From contig FN649734.1 in assembly GCA_000310025.1 (NCBI GenBank), forward strand, positions 2,530,632-2,553,601: a DNA stretch of 22,970 nucleotides. Direction: 5' to 3'. Positions 250 to 18,394 of the stretch are shown in pieces; position 1 is the stretch's first letter, and every line of letters begins with the position of its first letter. The notes beneath the pieces are model-generated. The model worked only from the letters and a program-made list of their open reading frames with translations. It ran no database searches and was not told the DNA's origin. Source of the DNA: Ectocarpus siliculosus (Eukaryota > Sar > Phaeophyceae > Ectocarpales > Ectocarpaceae). Both the position numbers and the translations under genes were made by a program.

Positions 250-3200
250 GGTACACCAACAAGGTCCCTTTGATGAGCAAGTACCTCTGGAGAAAAGGCT
301 ACCTACGGATGCCGACTTCTTGCTCGGTCGAGAGCGAAGGTATGGCACCGGAGTAGAACGTGGTCTGGTTGGTATGGTCGCGAATGTGTTGTTCGGGTTC
401 CAACCACGGGCGAATTTTTGTTTTTTGTGGGGCGCACTTGGATTTTTTTTATGTATGTTTTTAGCGGGAAAGATTGACGGCCTGCTATATTTGAAGAAGG
501 GGCGAAATGTGTTTTTGCATCATGGCGTAGTTTCCACCTGGCCCAAAAAACAGTAGGGCCCAATCGGTACACACATAATTTGCAACCCCCGCAGGCATGA
601 TCCATCCTACCGCTTCAGTAGCTCTCGTGACATGGAATGTCCTTTCCCGCAACGAAATGTTTGCCGGGATAAAGCAATCAAAACAAGAAAAAAAAAAATA
701 CCGGACCCCTTCCCCCCCCTCTCCCCATGTTCGTGGTGGCTCAGGAGAGGTGGGTCTTAAGCGATCCAATTCCCCCAGATGAACGCACATTCCAATAAAC
801 ACAAATGAGGAAAAGAATCGTCCAAAGCAGAAGCGAAATAGACTAATTTCCAATAAACACAAATGAGGAAAAGAATCGTCCAAAGCAGAAGCGAAATAGA
901 CTAATTTAGCGCTTTGATAATATCGAAAGCAGCACTCTTGCCGTAAATGCCGCTCGCTGTCTAGTCTTGTGTACGCACCAAAAGGTGTCAACTAGGATAA
1001 GCCGGATGGCACACGCACACCTCTGGTCTCAAAAAACGATTGAACCTGACACACAACGATGCGTGTACAGGCACTGGAGACGCCTCCACCTGCCGCTCCT
1101 CTTGCCCCGCTGAGTTGTACGAGTCGAAGGGAATGAAGCCCTATGACGTTCTGATGGACGTTTACGCGCTCCACTGGATCGCGGAAAGCGCGGGCGGGAT
1201 CGTGGTGAGTCACGAGAGCCGACCGGCGTGTGAACATTTATGCTTGTTGGAGATGGGTGCGCGCCATTGGGTGTTCCGTACACTGCTGTGCTCTCGGACC
1301 TATTTGTTTTTCAGTCGCTCTCTTTGCCCCCGTGGTCCATCCTTGTAAAAAGTAGCCTGGGCCGGCGAAAACCCGGCACGTCGCCCCGTTCCGGCGTTGT
1401 TGGTAGGGATGCGAGGCCAATGGTCTATGATTACGACTACGGCGTGCGTTTACGCGAGTACACCTCCCCCTCTACCGTCCCGACACCCATGTAGGTGTGG
1501 GACAACAACACGGAGCACTTCACGGTCGCCGGGCACGAACACGACGCAGAGTTCATGGAGGGGCTGTGGACCAAGGTGCTCACCTCGCTCTGCGACCCCG
1601 GGTAAGCTTCGCACCCAGCAGTACCGTGGTGGCCGTTGGAGTTTTGTACGTTTCCTCTCCTTTTCTTGGTGAACGACGCGCAAAATGTACCTTTGGCGGG
1701 CGGGCGGTTTTTCTCCTGCTTGTCTTAAAAAGGAATGGTTCGCCCGAACCTATCTCCCCTTGCGCAAAACTGACCCCTGTCTTTCGATGGATGTGCGGAC
1801 GTAAGGGTTCGTGGCCTTGTAAGCCTCCTACACCAGACGGCTTTGCTTATTCGCTCGTTGGATTCTTTTCCCGCTGAGGGTTGCGAAGTAGAGGCGGCAA
1901 TTGGCCGTGTGCCCCCCACCGGCTGCGTACAACGCATGCATCCGAAGCGTTCGGCAGCCATCGGTGTGCGCCCCCCGTCGTCGCGTGTTCTGTAGAAACT
2001 CGAAATCCTCCCTTTCGCCTGTTTGAGCCTCGACCAACCCCGCTACGCGCTTTTGCAGCTGGCTGGGGCCACAGGATTTTCGTAAGAATGAAACTCTTGA
2101 CGCCCAACCCCGTAGCATGCTGCAGCTGGAACCACAGGGGTTTCGAGAACAAGTAGATGACACCCCGGCTACACGCTGCAGCTGGGATCGTGAGAATGTC
2201 CAAAACAAGAAATGCTAGGAGTATATTGGTAGACACCTCCCGTAACATGCTGCACTGGGGGCCCTGGGAATGCGAGAATGCCTGTCTCAGCTCCCCCTCC
2301 CCCTTCTGCTTGCTTTTTTTTTTTGTTTTTGGCAGGCACGTGGGAGAGTTGTACTCGTCCTCGGCACCGTACGACCCCCTGTTCTGGGTCATTCACCCCA
2401 CCGCCGAGAGGTTCATGGGGTGGAAGAGGAAGCTGGCCAGAGAGCGACCAGACGTGTGAGTAAAGAAGCAAGCACCCCAACACCACGTACCTGTGCACGT
2501 AAACGGTGGTCAAAAAGAGTGTCTGCTGTTTGGCCCTTTGGCCCATGGTACATACCGTACGACCAGTTTTTTTTCGGGTAGTTTTGTGACCGATGCACAC
2601 GAGCGTGGGGTATTTATTGGTGAGGGCAGGATTTTCACCGGTGCAGACAAAATAGTGTGGGCTTTCTTCATCAAAAGGAGACATGTGGGGGTGGCAGCGA
2701 TGCCATAGAGTCGGACGTATCTCGCGCGTGGCCTTGTGGGTGAGCTCTTGAAAATGTTTTCCCGCTCGTCAGATGACGAAGCTGGAAGTACCACGTAATA
2801 ATCGGGGGGGCCGCAGACAACCCCCCCCCCCTGCGCTCTGCCCCTCCGCTGCCCGTGCATACTTAAAAAAAGGCACAGGAACAGGAGAACAGCCCCTGTC
2901 TTTGCCGATTTATAACGTTTCGAAATTGTCAAATGCTGTTGTGGGTGTACATGGGCTATTCTTATATATGTCAATGAAGCGATAAGATAGTTCGAGAGGC
3001 AGCGATGTAGATTCTGGGAAGGCGAACACAAGGCTTCCGCACAACTATCCAGTTTCTGGGTATTTGGAGTGCCGCGGTCCCGATGCGACACACCGATAGC
3101 CCGAAACGACACTTAGTTGTCCCGAAAACGACACACCGTTGCCTCGAGATGACACTTAATTTCCCGACCGACACGTACTTGTCCCGAGGCGACACATCAT

Positions 3201-4182
3201 TATCCCGAAGCGGCACTTCGTTTTCCCGAAACGACCCATCGTGTTTTCTTTTGTTGTCGTTTCGGCTAGTTTTGGGTACGAGGCGCCGACCAACAAAAAT
3301 CGCCTTTATTCAAACGCTTGCGTTATTGCAATTAAGCTCCTACAGCGGCACAAAAGAAGCGAAAAAGAGAGACTGGCAGACAGGCAGGCAGACAGACAGA
3401 ACGTCTGCCGACGAGTCAAACGGCACCCTTGAGCGGTAGACAAGACACCCGCAGATTGGATGTGCCTCACACGCGCTGCTTTTTAAGCCTACCGCCTTTC
3501 GTTTGTGTTTGAAACTCTCTCTTCCCCCCCCCCCGCCACCGCTGCCACAGGCACCCCTTTAGCGAAGACTGGGGCTACACCCACGGCAATGTTGTCGGGG
3601 AGACGGGGATGGTGTGTGACTGGTCGGGAGTGCGGCAGGGCACCCTCGACATGCCGACGTGCGTCAAAGGCATCTGCGGGGGACACTCCGCCGGGGACTT
3701 GCTTCCTTTCAAAGTCAAGGTGTGACGAGTGTCATTGTACGTCTACTACAGGGGCGAAAGAAAATTGTGGTTCTTTTTTTTGTTGTTGCTCTCTCTGCCT
3801 GGTACGATTTGTACTGTCTAGACCTTGTATTTTGTCCTTTTTTAGTTGATCTCTCTGCCTCGAACTAGACCACGTAGTATGACGTTTTTCGCCCTTGGTT
3901 GGAGCATTGTTGTTGTGTTGACGTTAACAACCGTTCGGTTTCTACCCCGCACCTTGTAGTACACGCGATAGTTTTCTTACGGAGTGGTACTTGGGTTCGT
4001 GCGAATTGGACAAGGTAAAGACTGATCTGTTTGTGCATGGTGAGGTTGTGTCTCTTCGGATGAGGCGCGCCGCTTGCTGGATGAGCAAACCCTCAAGACG
4101 CTTTTGACAACATGACGAACGCCTCTCCCTCCCTCTGTTGCTTCTTCTCCCGTCTCTCTCCCGTCTCTCTCTCTCTCCCTCT

Positions 4183-4239
<57 letters not shown>

Positions 4240-4391
4240 CTGCCCCCTTTGGGAACAAAAAACCAACAACGGTGAAGATCGGCGGGGAAGTGCGCAAGAT
4301 GACCAACGCAGAGTGGCTAGACTTCATCTACCCGGACAACGAGGAGCTACCCTACATGTACGACAGCTTCGGCTGGGACCACTGCGCGTGA
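250..4391 (+). CDS. Tyrosinase-like (type-3 copper domain) protein, 5'-partial, six exons
   Basis: Exons are 250-339, 1071-1204, 1495-1601, 2336-2455, 3551-3719 and 4278-4391 (TGA stop). The donors are GTATGG, GTGAGT, GTAAGC, GTGAGT and GTGTGA; all acceptors are AG and the phases agree at each junction, giving 243 visible residues and a stop. The exon-4 segment YDPLFWVIHPTAERF, preceded by GHVGELYSSSA, resembles the CuB half of the tyrosinase/hemocyanin central domain (family consensus: His, small residues, DPxFFxHH, D-R-[LF]). Further His residues lie in exon 3 (EHFTVAGHEHDAEF). Exons 5-6 are Cys-rich and end in YDSFGWDHCA. Family members oxidise phenols with a di-copper centre. Here the usual second His after the F-x-x-H is Pro, and a Cys sits four residues before the first CuB-like His, so activity is doubtful. 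The N-terminus (CuA) is outside the window. The gene structure is well supported; the family call is moderate. The last intron's acceptor (AAG at 4275-4277) is the first AG after the CT tract. Confidence 0.7.
790..907. repeat. Exact 58-bp tandem duplication in intron 1
   Basis: Positions 790-847 are repeated without a mismatch at 848-905, and the first two bases of a third copy follow. The unit begins ttccaataaacac and ends gactaat. It lies in the first visible intron of the tyrosinase-like gene. Perfect identity means either a recent duplication or an assembly duplication. Confidence 0.95.
2041..2280. repeat. Degenerate tandem repeat, four units, intron 3
   Basis: A core tgcagctgg recurs at 2054, 2121 and 2177, with a variant tgcactggg at 2251. 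Each is followed by a related tail that includes ccacagg in some copies and a gaatg motif in others. Spacing is 56-74 bp. The unit has drifted, so this is an old minisatellite. It lies just upstream of the acceptor of the exon carrying the CuB-like motif. Confidence 0.6.
3067..3241. repeat. Degenerate ~21-bp minisatellite in intron 4
   Basis: About 7.5 imperfect units with consensus cgacac(a/t)(c/t)(c/a)gttgtcccgaa run from 3086 to 3241, preceded by part of an earlier unit (gtcccgatg). The units alternate cgacac starts with tcccga ends, and period and sequence vary slightly (19-22 bp). The repeat reads open in some frames but lies between a clear donor at 2456 and a clear acceptor at 3550. 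Confidence 0.85.
3375..3400. repeat. Short GACA/GGCA tetranucleotide repeat
   Basis: Six to seven copies of a 4-bp unit (ggca/gaca) lie in intron 4 of the tyrosinase-like gene. This is a simple microsatellite; no function is suggested. Confidence 0.8.
4120..4250. repeat. CT microsatellite forming the acceptor tract of intron 5
   Basis: The stretch is almost purely pyrimidine, with an uninterrupted (CT)n from 4191 to 4234. The first AG after it is at 4276-4277, where the last exon of the tyrosinase-like gene starts in the correct phase. The long tract therefore probably doubles as the polypyrimidine tract of this intron. Length variation here could affect splicing. Confidence 0.85.
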
Positions 4392-4429
4392 GTACTGCCT
4401 ACCACCAGCTTTCTATGCCCATGTATATG

Positions 4430-4566
4430 CAGCAGCGAGACGCCCGTTTGGCTGCTTGCTATGCGGCAGCCGGGACGCCCGTTTATGGCTGTTTTCTTTT
4501 CAGGAGCCGAGACGCCTGTCTGGCTGATTTCCATGCAGCGGTGGAGACGCCCGTTTGGCTGCTCTC
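4430..4566. repeat. Four-unit ~36-bp tandem repeat in the 3' flank or UTR
   Basis: The core gacgcccgtttggctgc, with variants, starts at 4439, 4474, 4511 and 4546, a period of 35-37 bp. It begins about 40 bp past the stop of the tyrosinase-like gene. If the exon ending at 4387 used its GTGAGT as a donor instead of reading to the stop, this repeat would be intronic. I prefer 3' UTR or flank. Confidence 0.85.
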
Positions 4567-9222: not shown

Positions 9223-12200
9223 TTATCGTGTTGTCAAACAAGGATAATAATTATATTCATCTTGCCCGTGTACCTCGGCCTTGTTTCGAGCGATTGCCTT
9301 CGGGGCGGCCGGTTGTGGTTCCGGGCTGCTGCCGCGCAGTGGCGATCTGGCGGGCGGCTGTGTTGCATCCACGAACAATGTCATCGAGCGAAAACAAAAG
9401 ACAAACAAGGACGCGAAACAGGCGTTTCTCAAGTTCTACGTAGGACATAGAACACAATGTGGTGTTGAGTGTCTCTTCCGTCAGTCTGAGACATAAACCG
9501 GTCCGTTTCGCCTACTTTCGTGAAAGTGTTAGCAGTGGCGCGAACGGCCGCCTTGGAGACCAACCAGGGTCGTACTGTCTTTTCGATGAGCGTCCTTACT
9601 CGCTCAACGCCTTTCACTCGAGCCACGAGTAGATAGTAGCAGCTGCTTTTTCGCCAGGCGTGCAAGCCCACGGTGATTCATTCTCGACAGAACCTCTCGC
9701 ATTGTACAGTAGTGGAATTTGCAGCACCTTCGCGGTCTTTCCTGCCACGAGGTAGACTCCCAAGATGGACGGCCATACACGTAGAGTCTTGACAAGACAA
9801 TCAACGCTCCCACGCGCTCACCAATAACAACGTGAAACCGCGACGTTGTTGGTGTTGATCAATATTCCGCGAGCACGTACCGGTCCAAGACTCGAGGAAA
9901 AACCGTCGTCTACTGTGATTTTGACTCTCCAACAACGACGAACAGCAAGAACAACAACCGAGGATCCGGTGATCCAAGGGCCTGAACAATGAGGCGCTTG
10001 CTTTCTTTTGAGCATTTCAAGTTCTGCAATCAATCGCGTTTTGTACACGCTATCTAGATCTGTTGGTGGAAAATCCTGGCGTTGAAATCCGGACAGCGGC
10101 CGACTATTGACCGCGGGTGAGGAGTACTGATTTAACGTACGGCAGGAAACCGTGCTTGTCTCGCCGCGCTCATACCTCGACAACAAAGAAACTTCTTTGG
10201 CAAGATGTTGGTAACGCTTCCAACTCCAATCCTTTCATAAACAAACGGACCATTCCTGCTGTTGTGGGGATATCGACAATGGCACATCGACCTGAAGGGT
10301 ACACGGCACCTCGGATTGAACGAGACGTCGAAGCCGAGGAGGGGAAACGGCCTGGTGGTGGTGGTGACCTGCCGCAGGCGGGGCCGCCGACAAGGGCTCT
10401 ATCCTGCCCGAGTCGCCGTTGACCTCTGCCACCATCGACCTCGCCAGCCGGCCTCGCTGCTCGAGCTGCCTCTGCCGCCTGCCCTCGACCCTCTCGCTCC
10501 AGCCCCCGTCCCCCTGTCCGAAGCCGGACATTTTCCCGAGGGGTGCGCTGCTGTTGACCGGCGACCGGTTTCGAGCCGCTCGCGTGCTCTTCGTCGGTAA
10601 CGGGGCCACACGCCCGGCAACAGCGCCGGCGCCCGAGCTGCTCTTCAAGCCGTATCCGTCGCCATCTGCTCGCTCCCGTCGTCTCCGAGGGTGGCTCGGC
10701 ACGAGACCGTCGGCGCCCCCGGGTCCCGTGTTGGTGGACAATGAGCGATGTTGATCTGGCGGGCGCGTATGTGCACCACCACCACCACCACCATCACCAT
10801 CACCACCACCACGCCCGTTGCCTCGCCGCCCCCCAGTAGCTTCGGCTGCCGGCCAGTCTTTCCCTCTCTGCGTACCCTCTCTTGCCCAGCTTCTACTTCT
10901 ATCTCTACCCCCGCTAGTGCCACCACCGCCGCCCGCCCCAACGCCGCCGGCTCCCCCCGGGTGCCTTTGCCGGCCTTCGCCTTCGATATCGGCGTTGTCT
11001 CTCCTCCTGCTCATTCGCACAACCCCGGCTTCCTCCTGCACAAAGAGAAAAATAAATACCACAATCTCAGCTTGTCGGTGCCGTGTGTGTTCCCCCAAAA
11101 CATACCGTGACGGATCGTTTCAAACAACCTAAAAAAAAACGGAAATGGTGACACCTTCGGTTGCTCTTAGTACACCAACCGTGGTACATCTCGGTTTAGA
11201 TACACCCATCTACAAATTATGGCAACCGCACCTCTCTTGCGAGTCCCCCTATCGCCCTCTGACCGCCGCCGTAACTTCGCGGCTTGTCGTTCCTCGGGGT
11301 GGCCGGTGCGGGGGCAGCGGCAGGGCCGTCGCGAGGGCGCCTTCTCCTTCCTTCCGGCAGTGCCGAAGGGGGGAAGGACGGGTAGTCGTATCCACCGCCG
11401 CCGTGGCCTTCGGCATGCCCGCCGCCACCGCCACCGCCGCCGCCGCCGCCGCGGCGGCCCCCTGGCCAGGTCCCGAAGGACTGCTTCGGGGGTTGGGCGG
11501 TGGTGGCCGCGGCGGGTTGGGGTGCCCGTCGTCTCGGGGTTGCGAACGGGGTCGAGAACGCTGCGCCCTCTTCGTTGTAGTCGTAGTCGTTGTTGTTGCC
11601 TTGACGGTCTCTGCCCCCCCCACGCCGGCGGTCGTCGTGGCCGTCTTCTCTGTAACCGAAGTCCCTCGCCTGGCCGTGGCGGCTACGGCTAGCCGCTCCG
11701 ACGGGAGCCGCCGCAGAAGCAGCAGTAGCGTACGCTGCACGCCCAAAGTAGGCGTCTGCTCCTTCGCCGTTGTTGTTGTCGCGCCTGTCGTTGCTGTTGC
11801 CGCCGCTCCTCGCGCGGTGTCGTGCCACGCCCCCCTTCTCGTCGATCTCTGTGCTTCTCTCTCTCCACAAGGGAGATGTTCTTGACCGGTTTGATTCCGC
11901 CGCCGCTCTTCTGGGTTGCCGACGGCGGGGGCTCGTATCGCCTTCTTCAAAACTAGACCCCTGATCGCTGACATCTCTCAGTGCCATTGCTTGATGACGG
12001 GCGCCCCTAGCATCCCCATCGAATACTTGGCCGTCTCCGAATCGCTCGGCTCGGTGGTGCCGGAAATGCTCATCGTCTAGCCTGCCATCTCGCCGCTGCT
12101 GCCGCGGCCGTCGCCGCCGCCGCCGCCGCCTCCTGTGGTACTCTCTTTCTTCCCCCCCAACCGAGGGGTCGCTCTGGCCACCCGGTGCGGTCGTTTCGAA

Positions 12201-15200
12201 GTTCACTCCTCTGACTACTCTATGACGACGGCGGTTTCCACGGTCATCGTCGTCATCGCTGGCGAATCCGAAGCCCCTTCGACGACTCCTTGCCGGACGG
12301 TGCCGCCCTTCGTAGCTCGATGAACCGTCGCTCTCCTGGTATCCAGGCGCCCTCCCCAGCCGCCTTGGGCCCACCTTGACCGCCCGCCGTACCAGCCCTT
12401 CCCCTCCGTCTCTCACGTTGCCGAAACCTCTGGTGTCTCGTGGCATCGCCCTCCGGCCACCACCGCCCCTTCCGCCAGCGCCTTCCACACCGCCACCTCT
12501 GTCCACGAGATCGCTGTCAGGGCTTGCTCTTCTTCGCCCCCCTTCAACGTTGCCGAGGGCTCTGCCTTCCCGCTTTGCTGGGTCCGCGTTGGAGAACGCT
12601 TCCCCAGGGGCGTAGCTCCGCGACCGTTTGCCCGGTTCTTCCTTTCCGCGGGCGTCTTTTGCTGCCGCCTTGCCTCTGCCCTCCCCGCCCGTTCGCCTCG
12701 ATTCGTGGAACTCCTCGGCGTTCCTTTTTTTTCGCGTGCCACGTAGGGGACAGGGAAAGGAAGTTTGAGCACGCTGTAACGCACGAAGAACAGTAGTTAT
12801 CAAGGTTCTACCAGACTGTGCAGCTGTTCGCAATCACAAGTGGCGAGTGATTGTTCGCGTTGAAGATCTTTGGAACTGACGCAACAGGCACAATTCACCG
12901 CGGTGCGTGGAGACGATGTTCAAACGAGAAAACTCCTTCTGTTTCAACACAGGAGCTCACATCCCGAAGGAACGGTGTGGAAGACAGCATGGTTTTGTGA
13001 GGTACCCAACCCGACATTGGTGTGTGATATCCGACGAGTTGCACGCTACTGTACTGGGAGGACCTCAAACACGAATTGTGTTTGCCGCTTTTGTTCCTTC
13101 TCGCAAGCTACGTCCAACACCAAACACATCTTGAAAGAAGACCGCGAATCGTGCAACGAGGGTGATGGAGAGGATTTTGCTCTTTTGGAGAGGAGAGACA
13201 AGAACAACGCCCGACTTGCGTGATGAAATTGACGCTTGGATTAGTCTTATGACCATCCGAGTGAGACTTCGTGTCCAAAGCCCAGGCTTGCATTGTATCC
13301 CGTAACAGAATGGTAAAAGGTCGCAAACAATCCCAAACACAACCATGCTGTAGTCGTATGGGTTTGAGAGGGTGATGACGACACACGAGGGAGGGGTGCG
13401 AGCTGAACGGGGCGCCCACATAATCGGCTTGGCATATGGTGGGGAGGATTGGGCCTTTCGGATTCAGGCCTTACCACAGCCTCCACATACCTGCCGTACA
13501 AACACAATGCGGTTGTTACAGGGGGGCGAAAAACCCACCTGATCGATGCAGCTGGAAGGGAGGACGACCTCTTCCACCCGCCACCAACACCACTCGCTCG
13601 TCTACCACTGTTTTCGGGAACGTTCGCGCCGGTGGCAGCCAGCATCCTCATCATCTCCTCCTCCTCCATGTCGCTCCTTCGGCGGTCGGTGAAGCGTTTG
13701 TAGATTTGAACTTTTCGTCTGCCACGCAACAAAAATGGGTGGAGTAACGGGGTAGGCGCACAGGTTGTCATCGGAGGAATCCTCATTCGCTGTGTTAACG
13801 AAACAGTTCCACAGATCTTTCTCTCTCAAGGACATGAAACCCATGCCCCTGCTATTTATCGTTCGCAGGAGAGAGGATGGCCCACACGGGAGGAGGGCAA
13901 CCCAGGTGCTGCGTCTCTGGAAACGTAGGGTGGCTGGAAGTATAGACTATGATGTCCAAGGGTTTCTGCAATCGGCAAAACTGAATCCTGTGGAGATGGA
14001 CCACTCGCGACCCCGTCCTCGGACGCCGACCAATGAGAAGTTGCAGCTTCCCAAATAATCGGTTGGCATTGGTTGCTGGCCTAGGGATTCGTGGCGAACT
14101 TCGAATATACACCACCTACGGGGACTGAAGAGAACTCCCCCCCGCCCCCCCCTGGGTTCTGTAATATAGGCGAAAGGAGCTAAATATCCCCGGGTTTCTG
14201 GCATCCCTCTTTTTCCCCTTTAGTTCTTCTCCGGGCAGTTCCGTGAAGGCATCGGAACTGTTGCTGGCCTCACATACCAGCGAACGAAGAGCGACTGGTG
14301 GCCGTTGGCTTCGTTGTTGAGTTGTACGGTAACGTCAGAGCTTTGGTTCAGCAGAAATACGTGTGATATGAACGGTGGTGGCGTTGATTGTGTACCTGCA
14401 TGAGCGGCGACTCTTTAAAAAGCTGATTGGTTTCGGGTATGGGTTGTAAAGAACGTGGAGGCACTGTCGGTAAGCTGTCGCAATCGACTAGTATAAGAGC
14501 GCAGTGGGTTAATTGCCCCCTTTCGGCCTACATGTAGTGTGCAGCATCTTTTCTCTAAGCCGTGGAATCTAGTAACATTTCAGAATGTCCCGCCGCAGAA
14601 AAACGCGCGAGCTCACGGCCCTTTTCTGTCGTCGTGTTTCTCGACAAGCTAGCGCCTGACGTTGGAGGACTATGTGTCACATCCACAACTTCCACACTCT
14701 TCGATAGAAAGCTATGCACACTCACGGCTCTTGGTTCCTCGTTTTCGTGTCCTGAAAGTTCTGATTTAGCTGTCTGACAGAGATGATGGCCCGCCTCCGA
14801 TGACAAAAAGCTTGCTTCCTTTGGTATTGACTGGTTGTCCTGGTGGAATTAGTCCCCCGTTGTACGTGCAGCAGAAGTCGATTCGTCCCACGTTGCCTAC
14901 CCAAATACCCTCTGTGTACCCACTCGATCAGGTAGTGTTCGCTCCCATCCCAGACGAAACTCAAGATGCTGGTGACCCGGTTCTCAACCCCCCCCCGGAA
15001 GCGACAAAAGTTTTTTCGGTGAACAGTTCGAGTCCCATCGGGGTGGGCAGGAGGGGAAAACACTGATAACGTATCCTGTTGTGTATTCTTGCCTTGCCGG
15101 TGGGGCTCGGAGATGCGCCGGGGCTATCCCCGCCAGGGGGGGCACCAATCCGTCCGCGAGTAGGAAGGCATAGAGCCCCGCGAGAACCCGGCTAGCCGCC

Positions 15201-18200
15201 TCGACCCCTTCCTCCGCCGGCATCGGCACCTGCGATGCGAGCGAACGTACATGCACGTGCTATTTAGTTTGCCACCGGAAGAAAGTTTTTTTCTCTGTCT
15301 TGGTCCTACGAGTTCTAAACGCTGTTTGGTTCCCGTTGTACAAGTCCCTCTTCGGCAATACGCACCGAGTAGCACTAAATGGTGCACTTTTCCGAAAACA
15401 GGACAAAATGAGGAGTTCGTGTTCCTCAGCGAAAAGAGATGAGTGATCACGACTCATGCGCTTCGTAAATTTCCAACAGCGTCAACCTTAGCCTTCTACA
15501 GAATGTGGCTCCAACGTTTTGCTCCAAACTCGGGCCGCATCGATTGGGTGATGAATAAATGGAATGTGCAGGAGGAAATTCTCCGCGGTTGTTGTTGCTA
15601 CCCTACGTGTTAGCAGAGCGCTCAAGAGGAAGACTTCGCCGTTTTCTATCTCTCGGGCATCTTCTGAGGCCTTTTTCGACTCTCCCAGGCTCGTTGAGTC
15701 GGCGTAGGGATGACTCCTAAGAGGCAGTACACCGCGCTGCCGTCCCGCCCGACAAGGGCACGCCACACGTGTTCCAAGTCTCATTTGCATTTGAACACCT
15801 ACATCAATCGACGGATCAATCTGCCTTTGTACCCGGACAAGGGCAAGCGTAAAAGCCATTGAAACGGGATGGTTGGCGAACACAAAACGCCGATGCACAA
15901 CCAAGTGCTTCAGCAATAAATCCTTCCCCCCGACGTGTTTTGCTGTCGTTTCTCGCCATCACCGCCCGCAAGGCGCTCCGACAAACAAAGTACAGCACCT
16001 GGTGCCACTTCCATCGATACGTCTATTTTCTGGTTCCTGTCATCATGACACGTCGGCCCAATCTCTCGGGACCCGAGGTGACAGGCGGAACACCCGTTTG
16101 GATGCCTCGTCGCTTCAACTCGGCTCCAGCCGGAGGGAGGGAAGGGAAGACACCTCCACTGTGTGGCATCCCTCGACAACAAGTCAATACGAAACGAAGC
16201 GTGAATCTACTGTATTATGACTGATAGCTTGGATTTCGATCCGCTCCGCTCCTCTTCCGCGTTTGCTCACCGTACACAGACACCGCACGTCCTCGTGGGG
16301 GAGGGAATAGCTCCTTCTCCCAAGAAACTTCTGCACGAACTCCCAGTTGGCGGCCTTGTTGGCGGGACTGTTGCCGCGGTTGAAGTCCACGCTGTCGATC
16401 TTTCGCGGGTGGTAGTGAGCCAGGCATGCGCCGACGAGGTAGCCGTTCGCAATCTGCGCTTGCGCGTGTACGGGCAAGACAGGTGATTCGGGGCGTACGT
16501 ACAAGACTTCACCGAACAAGCTGGGTTTTTCTCGATCCCTCTTGAGATTCACAAAAAACAGCAACAGGCTGGTTCTTTCTCGATCACTCCTGAGATTCAC
16601 AAACAACAGCAACAGGCTGGGTCTTGCTCGATCCCTCCTGAGATTCACAAAAACAGCAACAGGTCCTTGAGGCAGAGGTATACCTAACACGACAGGGAAC
16701 TGGGAGGCCCACGGCAGCCGCACCGACTGACCTTGTGCCGGAGCTTGAAGTCGCAGTCAATCTCTCGGCGGTCGAAGTGACTCCGAAACCACCGCAGCAA
16801 TTTCTTCGCTTGTTCGTCCGTGGGGGATGCGACTCCGGGCGTCGTTGTCGTGGTAGCAGTCGTTCCGGTCGTCGTTGTAGTCTCCCTCACGTTAGACGAC
16901 ACCAGCTGCTTGTCCGTGCGATCCGCTGGACGAGGCTTGGTTGGTGTAGACTGCTGCGTTGATTGCGGCGACTTCTGGAGTGCCCTGCCGCTTGCCGCCA
17001 CGGGTGCGCACCAGCAGCGAGAGAGCAAGAACCAGAGAGACAAGAGGTCAAGAGGTGCTTGCGTGTGCGAGGGATAACTAGAGGCGACGACACAAAAGAT
17101 GGAGAACACGAGTGGTAAAACGAAAGCCGACGACGGAGTTCGTATTGCGGTGAACAGAAGCTACGTGGCGGCAGATTGCAGGAATGAAGCGTGGACTAGT
17201 AATGGGAAATACAATCGAATGACGTTGTCAATACCACAGAACACAACGTGCTTTGAAGTGTAAATGTAGATGAATCTGTAAAGCAGGGACCCTACCGTAA
17301 TTGCAGCTTAGAATCGTTTCTCGTTTTGTCAGGCCTGGGTCTCTAGTATTTTTCGTTTTTCCTACCCACACACATACAGTACAGCGATGCCAGAATGATG
17401 GAACGGTTGAAACGATACAGGTTACCTTTCTTCCCGGTAGTTCTTGTCAGCTTAGTTTTACCGCCTTGCTCCGCTGCAAACCGTATCCAGAGTGAGTTGC
17501 AAATACACGCGAATACATGCAGATCGCGTTGTTCGTCTTACCTATTGTCATTGTACGGGTCCTTTGTCGCTGGCACACCGTGCGAAGGCCCTGCCGGATC
17601 GCGCGGTGGCTTGGGAAAACGCGGGGCATGCACGGAAGGGGGTCGATCGGTATGGGCCGCGTGGGTTCCGACATGGGTTCCGATGTCGAGCCCCTTCTTT
17701 CTGCGGCCCTTGTGTTATCCCACGCAACCTGGCATGGTCCCTTCCCGAGATGGATCCCTCTCCTCCCAAACGCCTTGGAAACCCGAAGCCATGTCTTGTA
17801 CGTATAAAGCATGGACAAACAACTTTCCGTCCTCTTTTTAGGCAAAAACTAAAAGAATATTCATGGTACAGGGCTCACCGTGGCTTCGGTCGGCCCCGGC
17901 GTCTGTATAGGAACTCCTCCTCCCTCGACCCTCGGGCTAGTCAGTCTCCATGATGTACCGGCGTACTTCCCCAGATCTCCGGAGAGGCTCGCCGCATCGA
18001 CCTCTAGCTCCAAGGTGAGCTTCAAACCCTTGCCCCCCCCCGCTTTCCCCCCTCCCGCCGACGCTCCTGGAGACACTTCTTCTTCTGTAGGTTGTGGGTT
18101 TTGTTCTGTCGATGGAGGTTTTTCTTCTGCCGGTGGCGGTTGTTCTTTTGCCGGCGGTGGTGGTGACGGCTCGGGTTCTTCTGGTGGTGTTTTCGGTGGC

Positions 18201-18394
18201 GTTTGTTCTGTCTCCTCGCTCGATCCGTTGCTAGCGTCGGAGTCGAGATCGTCCAGGAGGCCGCTGTACTCCCTGACGAGGCTGCTTGGCGCCATGAAGC
18301 GAACGAGGCTCTTGAACTTTTGCATTGGTTTGCGTTCTGGGTGGTCGGGGCTTTTGTCGTCCTCCGACTTGTATTGCAGCATTTCGCGAGGCAT
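9223..18394 (-). CDS. CH_2 (SPATA4/CLAMP-type calponin-homology) protein with long Arg/Gly-rich tail, about ten exons
   Basis: Exons in transcription order: 18394-17879, 17696-17542, 16984-16732, 16453-16271, 15229-15093, 13718-13539, 12723-11232, 11035-10310 (or 10292), 10126-9881 and 9357-9223 (TAA). Phases agree at every junction, giving about 1,340 residues. ATG 18394 is the first Met after an in-frame TAA. Residues 1-172 are acidic and Pro/Glu-rich. At about 283-400, LLRWFRSHFDRRE, then IANGYLVGACLAHYHP, NKAANWEFVQKFL and ASRVLAGLYAFLL follow the CH_2 pattern (L-R-W, NGYLVAE, Y-P, K-NW-x-E-KF, acidic helix). Exon 6 has an acidic, Met-rich helix (DMEEEEMMRML). Residues about 476-1214 are low complexity: Arg/Gly, poly-Gly, poly-Arg and Asp runs. 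CH_2 proteins such as SPATA4 and CLAMP/SPEF1 act at microtubules or cilia in other eukaryotes; that role is inferred here. Intron 5 is GC-AG. Exons 1-7 are most certain. The gene could instead stop at 10235, leaving out exons 9-10, and the acceptor of exon 2 is less certain. Confidence 0.75.
16520..16662. repeat. Three-unit 48-bp tandem repeat in an intron of the CH_2 gene
   Basis: The units are 16520-16567, 16568-16615 and 16616-16662 (the last one base shorter). They share ctcgatc, gagattcacaaa and cagcaacag with few differences. They lie between the exons carrying the two halves of the CH_2 domain start. On the minus strand the repeat stays open in the frame of the downstream exon, but the upstream exon is in another frame, so it is read as intronic. 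Confidence 0.9.

Follow-up and report, generated by a model that had tools for sequence, protein, structure and literature searches.

The minus strand of the window (the whole stretch of 22,970 nucleotides that was analysed, positions 2530632-2553601 on contig C9 of a 189-Mb assembly) is confirmed to carry a CH_2 domain, spread over at least two exons. Taken as a whole, the evidence makes it fairly probable that the window holds a fourth, divergent CH_2 gene of a eukaryote with the central-pair set of such genes, whose product would dock on microtubules, together with basic low-complexity frames downstream. The features considered for the CH_2 part of the gene are the following.

17879-18394, minus strand: candidate first exon, acidic and Pro/Glu-rich, 172 codons, with an ATG and a donor of 5.9, phase 0.
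16732-16953, minus strand: first-helix CH_2 exon (LLRWFRSHF...RHK), donor 5.2; its 5' end is uncertain, with several phase-0 acceptors at 16905-16953.
16271-16453, minus strand: CH_2 core exon, phase 0 at both ends; use of an inner donor at 16288 gives 16289-16453.
15146-15229, minus strand: probable last-helix CH_2 exon (AEEGVEAASRVLAGLYAFLLADG), acceptor 4.9; its 3' end is uncertain and its support modest.
14984-14986, minus strand: in-frame stop after an unspliced last CH_2 exon, an alternative end of the CH_2 protein (from translation).

The PF06294 profile (length 96; curated Pfam cut-off 27 bits) was searched against all six frames of the genome; all seven candidates were scored, and six exon matches resulted, among them window positions 16271-16465 on the minus strand at 42.3 bits. 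The core frame scores 41.2 bits by hmmscan (E=1.7e-10), and the core exon on its own scores 40.9 bits, above the cut-off; the exon also has a coding-like codon bias, the highest of the six frames, and matches SPATA4 in the PDB at E=1.4e-5. When the upstream exon ending at 16732 is added, the CH_2 score rises to 45.1 bits, compared with 41.0 bits for one alternative upstream exon. When the 599 phase-0 candidates of the window were compared with the first helices of this genome's three other CH_2 genes, the same exon shared first place. Core and first-helix exons are thus both well supported, and profile positions 1-10 stay unmatched even in a three-exon join.

The earlier note had rebuilt the domain from three exons, and in the PF06294 profile check the score does climb from 40.9 bits (core) to 45.1 (two exons) and 49.1 (three), against the cut-off of 27. 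The reconstruction holds for two exons; that 15146-15229 is a third, carrying the last helix, is probable. The value of 49.1 bits (profile positions 11-95 of 96) is obtained when this exon is joined at the inner donor 16288, where nine decoy joins gave 41.0 to 44.8 bits and the model without any third exon 41.9 bits. This is the highest of 18 joins, with a lead over the best decoy of only 1.8 bits, the decoys having been picked among the best-looking of 112 candidates and not from all 112. At donor 16270, which has the stronger splice signal (5.9 versus 2.4 for 16288), the third exon adds nothing: the joins score 44.8-45.0 bits, with the match ending at profile position 80, and five of the seven decoys there (44.2 to 47.3 bits for all seven, 45.0 to 47.3 for the five) beat it. 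Nor is the exon outstanding in a simple alignment, in which it ranks 7 of 112 and 38 of 891. Further upstream, a 328-residue 5' model that includes the candidate first exon has its CH_2 match at residues 242-321 (45.8 bits, profile 16-95), and the codon usage of that first exon, 17879-18394, resembles non-coding sequence (score -0.128, z -3.2).

SPEF1, FAP178 and SPATA4 are CH_2 proteins located at the seam of the central-pair microtubules. In phmmer searches against the PDB, the closest matches to the window gene are SPATA4 (9ijj_b, E=3.5e-6) and FAP178 (7n61_0E, E=3.6e-5), followed by SPEF1 chains at 7e-4 to 3e-3. The comparison with SPATA4-type proteins, which had been drawn before, is apt insofar as SPATA4 and FAP178 are the nearest solved relatives of the gene, but it does not extend to orthology. 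The other CH_2 exons of the genome fall into three loci that, when spliced, score 95.8, 87.1 and 72.3 bits. The first of these, L001 (C3:5827413; 95.8 bits), matches FAP178 at E=6.3e-24 and SPATA4 at E=3.3e-22; the second (C25:476590-477963; 87.1 bits) matches SPEF1 at E=9.7e-27; and the third (C9:2286156-2286873; 72.3 bits), which lies on the same contig about 260 kb from the window gene, matches SPEF2 at E=5.8e-15 and CPC1 at E=6.3e-7. By these matches the genome retains the usual central-pair CH_2 set (SPATA4/FAP178-, SPEF1- and SPEF2/CPC1-like), which points to a flagellated life stage. The CH_2 domain of the window gene is 25% identical to that of the SPATA4-like locus, 21% to the SPEF1-like and 20% to the SPEF2-like one. 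Intron positions also differ: read by eye, the window gene has a phase-0 intron before IANG, whereas the SPATA4-like gene has a phase-2 intron within the Arg before DFSNG. Because a much closer gene sits on another contig (95.8 bits, and E=6.3e-24 to FAP178 as against 3.6e-5 for the window gene), the identification as a SPATA4/FAP178 orthologue was ruled out. On sequence grounds, the window gene is a fourth, divergent CH_2 gene, related to SPATA4/FAP178.

Residues at the presumed microtubule contact bear on what such a protein might do. As excerpted from PMC11642885, the SPEF1A residues likely to face tubulin at the seam include R32, H55, S62, Y68, T72, R76 and K80, and the mouse R31A mutation, equivalent to R32, impairs both microtubule binding and bundling. 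Numbering of the Tetrahymena SPEF1A agrees with chain 9nw3_1A, and two further residues, R25 and K28, had no placeable counterpart. In our alignment the window gene has H, V, S, A, F, K and R at the seven excerpted places, that is, one identical residue (S62), two conservative changes (R76 to K, K80 to R) and four other changes. The R32 place is Arg in six of the seven other alignment rows and His in the SPEF2-like row, and the arginine common to the four seam-binding chains compared is His in the window gene. Because this arginine is replaced, docking of the window CH_2 domain on microtubules may be weaker or lie elsewhere, and the domain would be expected to bind differently from its seam-binding relatives, if not simply less tightly. 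The His-for-Arg change makes for a clear binding prediction.

Downstream of the CH_2 exons, the following features come into consideration.

13539-13669, minus strand: short candidate exon (MEEEEMMRML...) with its own ATG and a donor of 6.6 at 13538; its phase fits the acceptor at 12723.
11217-12833, minus strand: open frame of 538 codons, stop to stop.
11232-12723, minus strand: Arg/Gly-rich frame, 497 codons in the exon of the earlier reader; donor 5.0 at 11231, weak acceptor of 1.6 at 12723.
10235-11119, minus strand: open frame of 294 codons.
10235-11035, minus strand: second Gly/Arg-rich frame, acceptor 4.6 at 11035, in phase with the preceding frame; stop at 10235-10237.

A single protein of about 1,340 residues, combining the CH_2 domain with a low-complexity tail, had been proposed in the earlier note. 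The Arg/Gly frames of 538 and 294 codons are indeed present; the junction signals that would join them to the CH_2 exons are weak, and we rate the chance that both parts belong to one mRNA as slightly less than even. Since the second tail frame already ends in a stop at 10235, the gene need not extend to 9223. There is a competing scenario, also quite conceivable if short of an even chance, in which two separate genes are present. One would encode a CH_2 protein of only about 330-400 residues, short as SPATA4 is, and stop near 15.0 kb; the other, Arg/Gly-rich, would start from an ATG of its own, such as that at 13669, and end at 10235. Splice signals speak for two genes, in that the GT donors behind the last CH_2 exon are weak, scoring 1.8 (15145) and 0.6 (15070), with one of 1.9 (15187) located in the last CH_2 helix; the acceptor at 12723 is likewise weak, at 1.6. 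Of the 37 donors used for kinesin training, 30 reach at least 4.1 and the other seven fall between 1.4 and 2.3, while 34 acceptors, scored with a slightly different matrix, range from 2.0 to 8.1. An in-frame stop at 14984 would provide the end of the CH_2 protein, but the 53 codons that precede it are not coding-like (codon score -0.093, z -1.7). The strong donor of 6.6 at 13538 follows a possible start codon, and 13669-13539 may either serve as the first exon of a second gene or be an internal one. Distances do not discriminate against joining, as the gaps of 1,476 and 815 bases between candidate exons are equally usable as introns.

The gene finder gave a divided answer: CH_2 and tail were joined in six of nine settings and kept apart in three, all three at the lowest gene-start cost, and 12723-11232 was never a single exon among the models given in full. 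This splice and codon model was home-made and trained on 38 kinesin exons of this genome, which derive from 56 of 138 matches, inside 22 loci, after eight rows with in-frame stops had been dropped; its cut-offs and penalties are guesses of ours, and GC donors were allowed, with a penalty, in the path search. Three of the kinesin matches (C12:2504576, C20:1008914 and C15:2643498) are located in open frames 6971, 5489 and 4546 codons long, and these giant frames may be assembly-gap artefacts, with N runs counting as open.

On balance the tail frames are more probably coding than non-coding, whichever gene they belong to. When 9800-13000 was shuffled 300 times with dinucleotides preserved, the longest frame measured 233 codons in the median and 448 at most, short of 538 in every shuffle. 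Sixteen 10-kb stretches sampled from the genome (12 of them without N) contain 47 frames of at least 250 codons, several of which are N-run artefacts; a frame of 538 codons or more is present in one of the N-free stretches. The alternative that the Arg/Gly frames are non-coding, part of an intron, UTR or intergenic stretch that is GC-rich, purine-biased and full of repeats and is open by chance, is in our judgement unlikely. It draws on the synonymous-codon score of the two tail frames (-0.013 and -0.004), which is the highest of the six frames yet near zero, the best plus-strand frame being barely lower at -0.018; the score is positive in 33 of the 38 kinesin exons, which are favoured since they also trained it. 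Third-position GC points in the same direction (0.67 and 0.65 versus 0.77 in kinesin exons), as do searches in which the tail frames had no match in Pfam and the 538-codon frame, with all 17 candidates scored, matched only itself in the genome at an E threshold of 0.001. Against a chance origin, besides the shuffles, are the usage of Asn codons (AAC 17, AAT 0) and Asp codons (GAC 27, GAT 10) in the tail, which is coding-like, and the junction 11231/11035 between the two frames, which has good signals on both sides (donor 5.0, acceptor 4.6) and is in phase 0.

As for the nature of the tail, poly-Gly and poly-Arg segments had been reported from the sequence, and they are borne out: there are runs of Gly11, Arg9 and Gly6, and over the 763 residues of the two frames GGG (24 versus 4.6) and RRR (18 versus 3.6) are enriched. 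The three runs overlap period-3 TRF arrays at 11419-11452, 12091-12130 and 10774-10812, respectively; Gly11 and Arg9 are written in mixed codons and Gly6 in pure GGT. At least in part, the homopeptide runs are trinucleotide expansions. Runs of four or more identical residues also occur in four of the 38 kinesin exons, and in the kinesin motor exon of locus L021 a Gly8 run lies within the motor domain match, an example of homopeptide insertion even in a conserved domain of this genome. The tail is basic, with a net charge of +33 and +13 for the two frames and +46 over 763 residues.

RNA-binding proteins of the RGG/RG type are defined by clustered motifs (di-RGG, tri-RGG, tri-RG). That the window encodes a flagellar CH_2 protein whose RGG tail binds RNA and forms condensates, as the first reading of the sequence had it, is very improbable: Arg and Gly account for 36% of the residues in the 538-codon frame versus at most 27% among the 47 sampled frames of at least 250 codons (some inflated by N runs), but RG occurs 15 times versus 23.7 expected (2,000 shuffles, 99% of which have as many or more), RGG occurs five times versus 4.3 by chance, the 763 residues contain one di-RG and no di-RGG, tri-RGG or tri-RG cluster, and fusion to CH_2 is unproven. 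An RGG RNA-binding module was accordingly rejected, and the condensate reading of the tail is weak. A narrow literature search found no paper that mentions both SPEF1 and low-complexity sequence.

Other features of the window are listed here for completeness. Its repeats include a perfect 58-base tandem duplication at 790-907, a 35-base unit present 3.9 times at 4426-4563 and, in the intron directly upstream of the CH_2 core exon, a 48-base unit present 3.1 times (89% matches) at 16515-16663; the frame 16184-16756 is open through this last array and encodes repeats such as VNLRRDRARPSLLLLF. On the plus strand, exons 1071-1204, 1495-1601, 2336-2455, 3551-3719 and 4278-4387 recur in four gene-finder runs (with mis-oriented training loci). 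When spliced (1071-4387), they show a copper-enzyme-like pattern by eye (DPLFWVIHPTAERFM), and neither this spliced guess, at a threshold of 0.01, nor its single frames matched Pfam. Ten neighbouring frames gave nothing in Pfam at E up to 0.1, and the window contains no tRNA genes and no Rfam families at gathering score.

Returning to the reading of a fourth CH_2 gene, we suggest that its CH_2 domain would dock on the microtubule more weakly than, or at a place other than, that of its seam-binding relatives. If this gene continues into the low-complexity frames as its 3' exons, for which the chances are close to even but not quite so, the frames would encode a disordered basic tail that might act as a spacer and, through its charge, contact acidic partners, for example tubulin tails. 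A more elaborate version, which we regard as rather doubtful, is that of a lineage-specific fourth CH_2 protein in which the seam arginine was lost and a basic, disordered, repeat-expanded tail of about 760 residues acquired, with the tail taking over microtubule or nuclear binding in a long tethering protein. An extra divergent copy beside the usual three raises the question of whether this lineage uses the CH_2 domain for a second task. Were the two parts fused, the tail would represent a repeat expansion that lengthened a normally short cytoskeletal protein, and not a demonstrated RNA-condensate device.

Finally, we compare the window gene with known systems. With SPATA4 of animals and FAP178 of Chlamydomonas, which are central-pair C2 seam proteins, it shares the CH_2 type and the K..NW core; it differs from them in having His at the R32-equivalent position, a longer loop before it and other intron positions, and possibly in a long tail. 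As excerpted from PMC12297659, mouse sperm SPATA4 lies at the C2 microtubule seam, is bound by SPAG16 and has an extra C-terminal domain that adds microtubule contacts. With SPEF1/CLAMP, which binds the microtubule seam and bundles microtubules, the CH_2 fold is common and S62 and the basic residues at 76 and 80 are kept, whereas R32, H55, Y68 and T72 are changed and the match is weaker (E=7e-4). SPEF2/CPC1 likewise has a CH_2 domain, and the SPEF2-like gene of this genome also has His at the R32 place, although the window gene differs from it in overall sequence and exon structure. The likeness to the CAMSAP CH domain (PF11971) is weak, with 24.3 bits for the core frame and 25.2-26.9 bits in four joins of the window, all below the cut-off of 27, and 28.0 bits in one decoy join; the scores of the core frame and the four joins are also far below the CH_2 score of the window gene.
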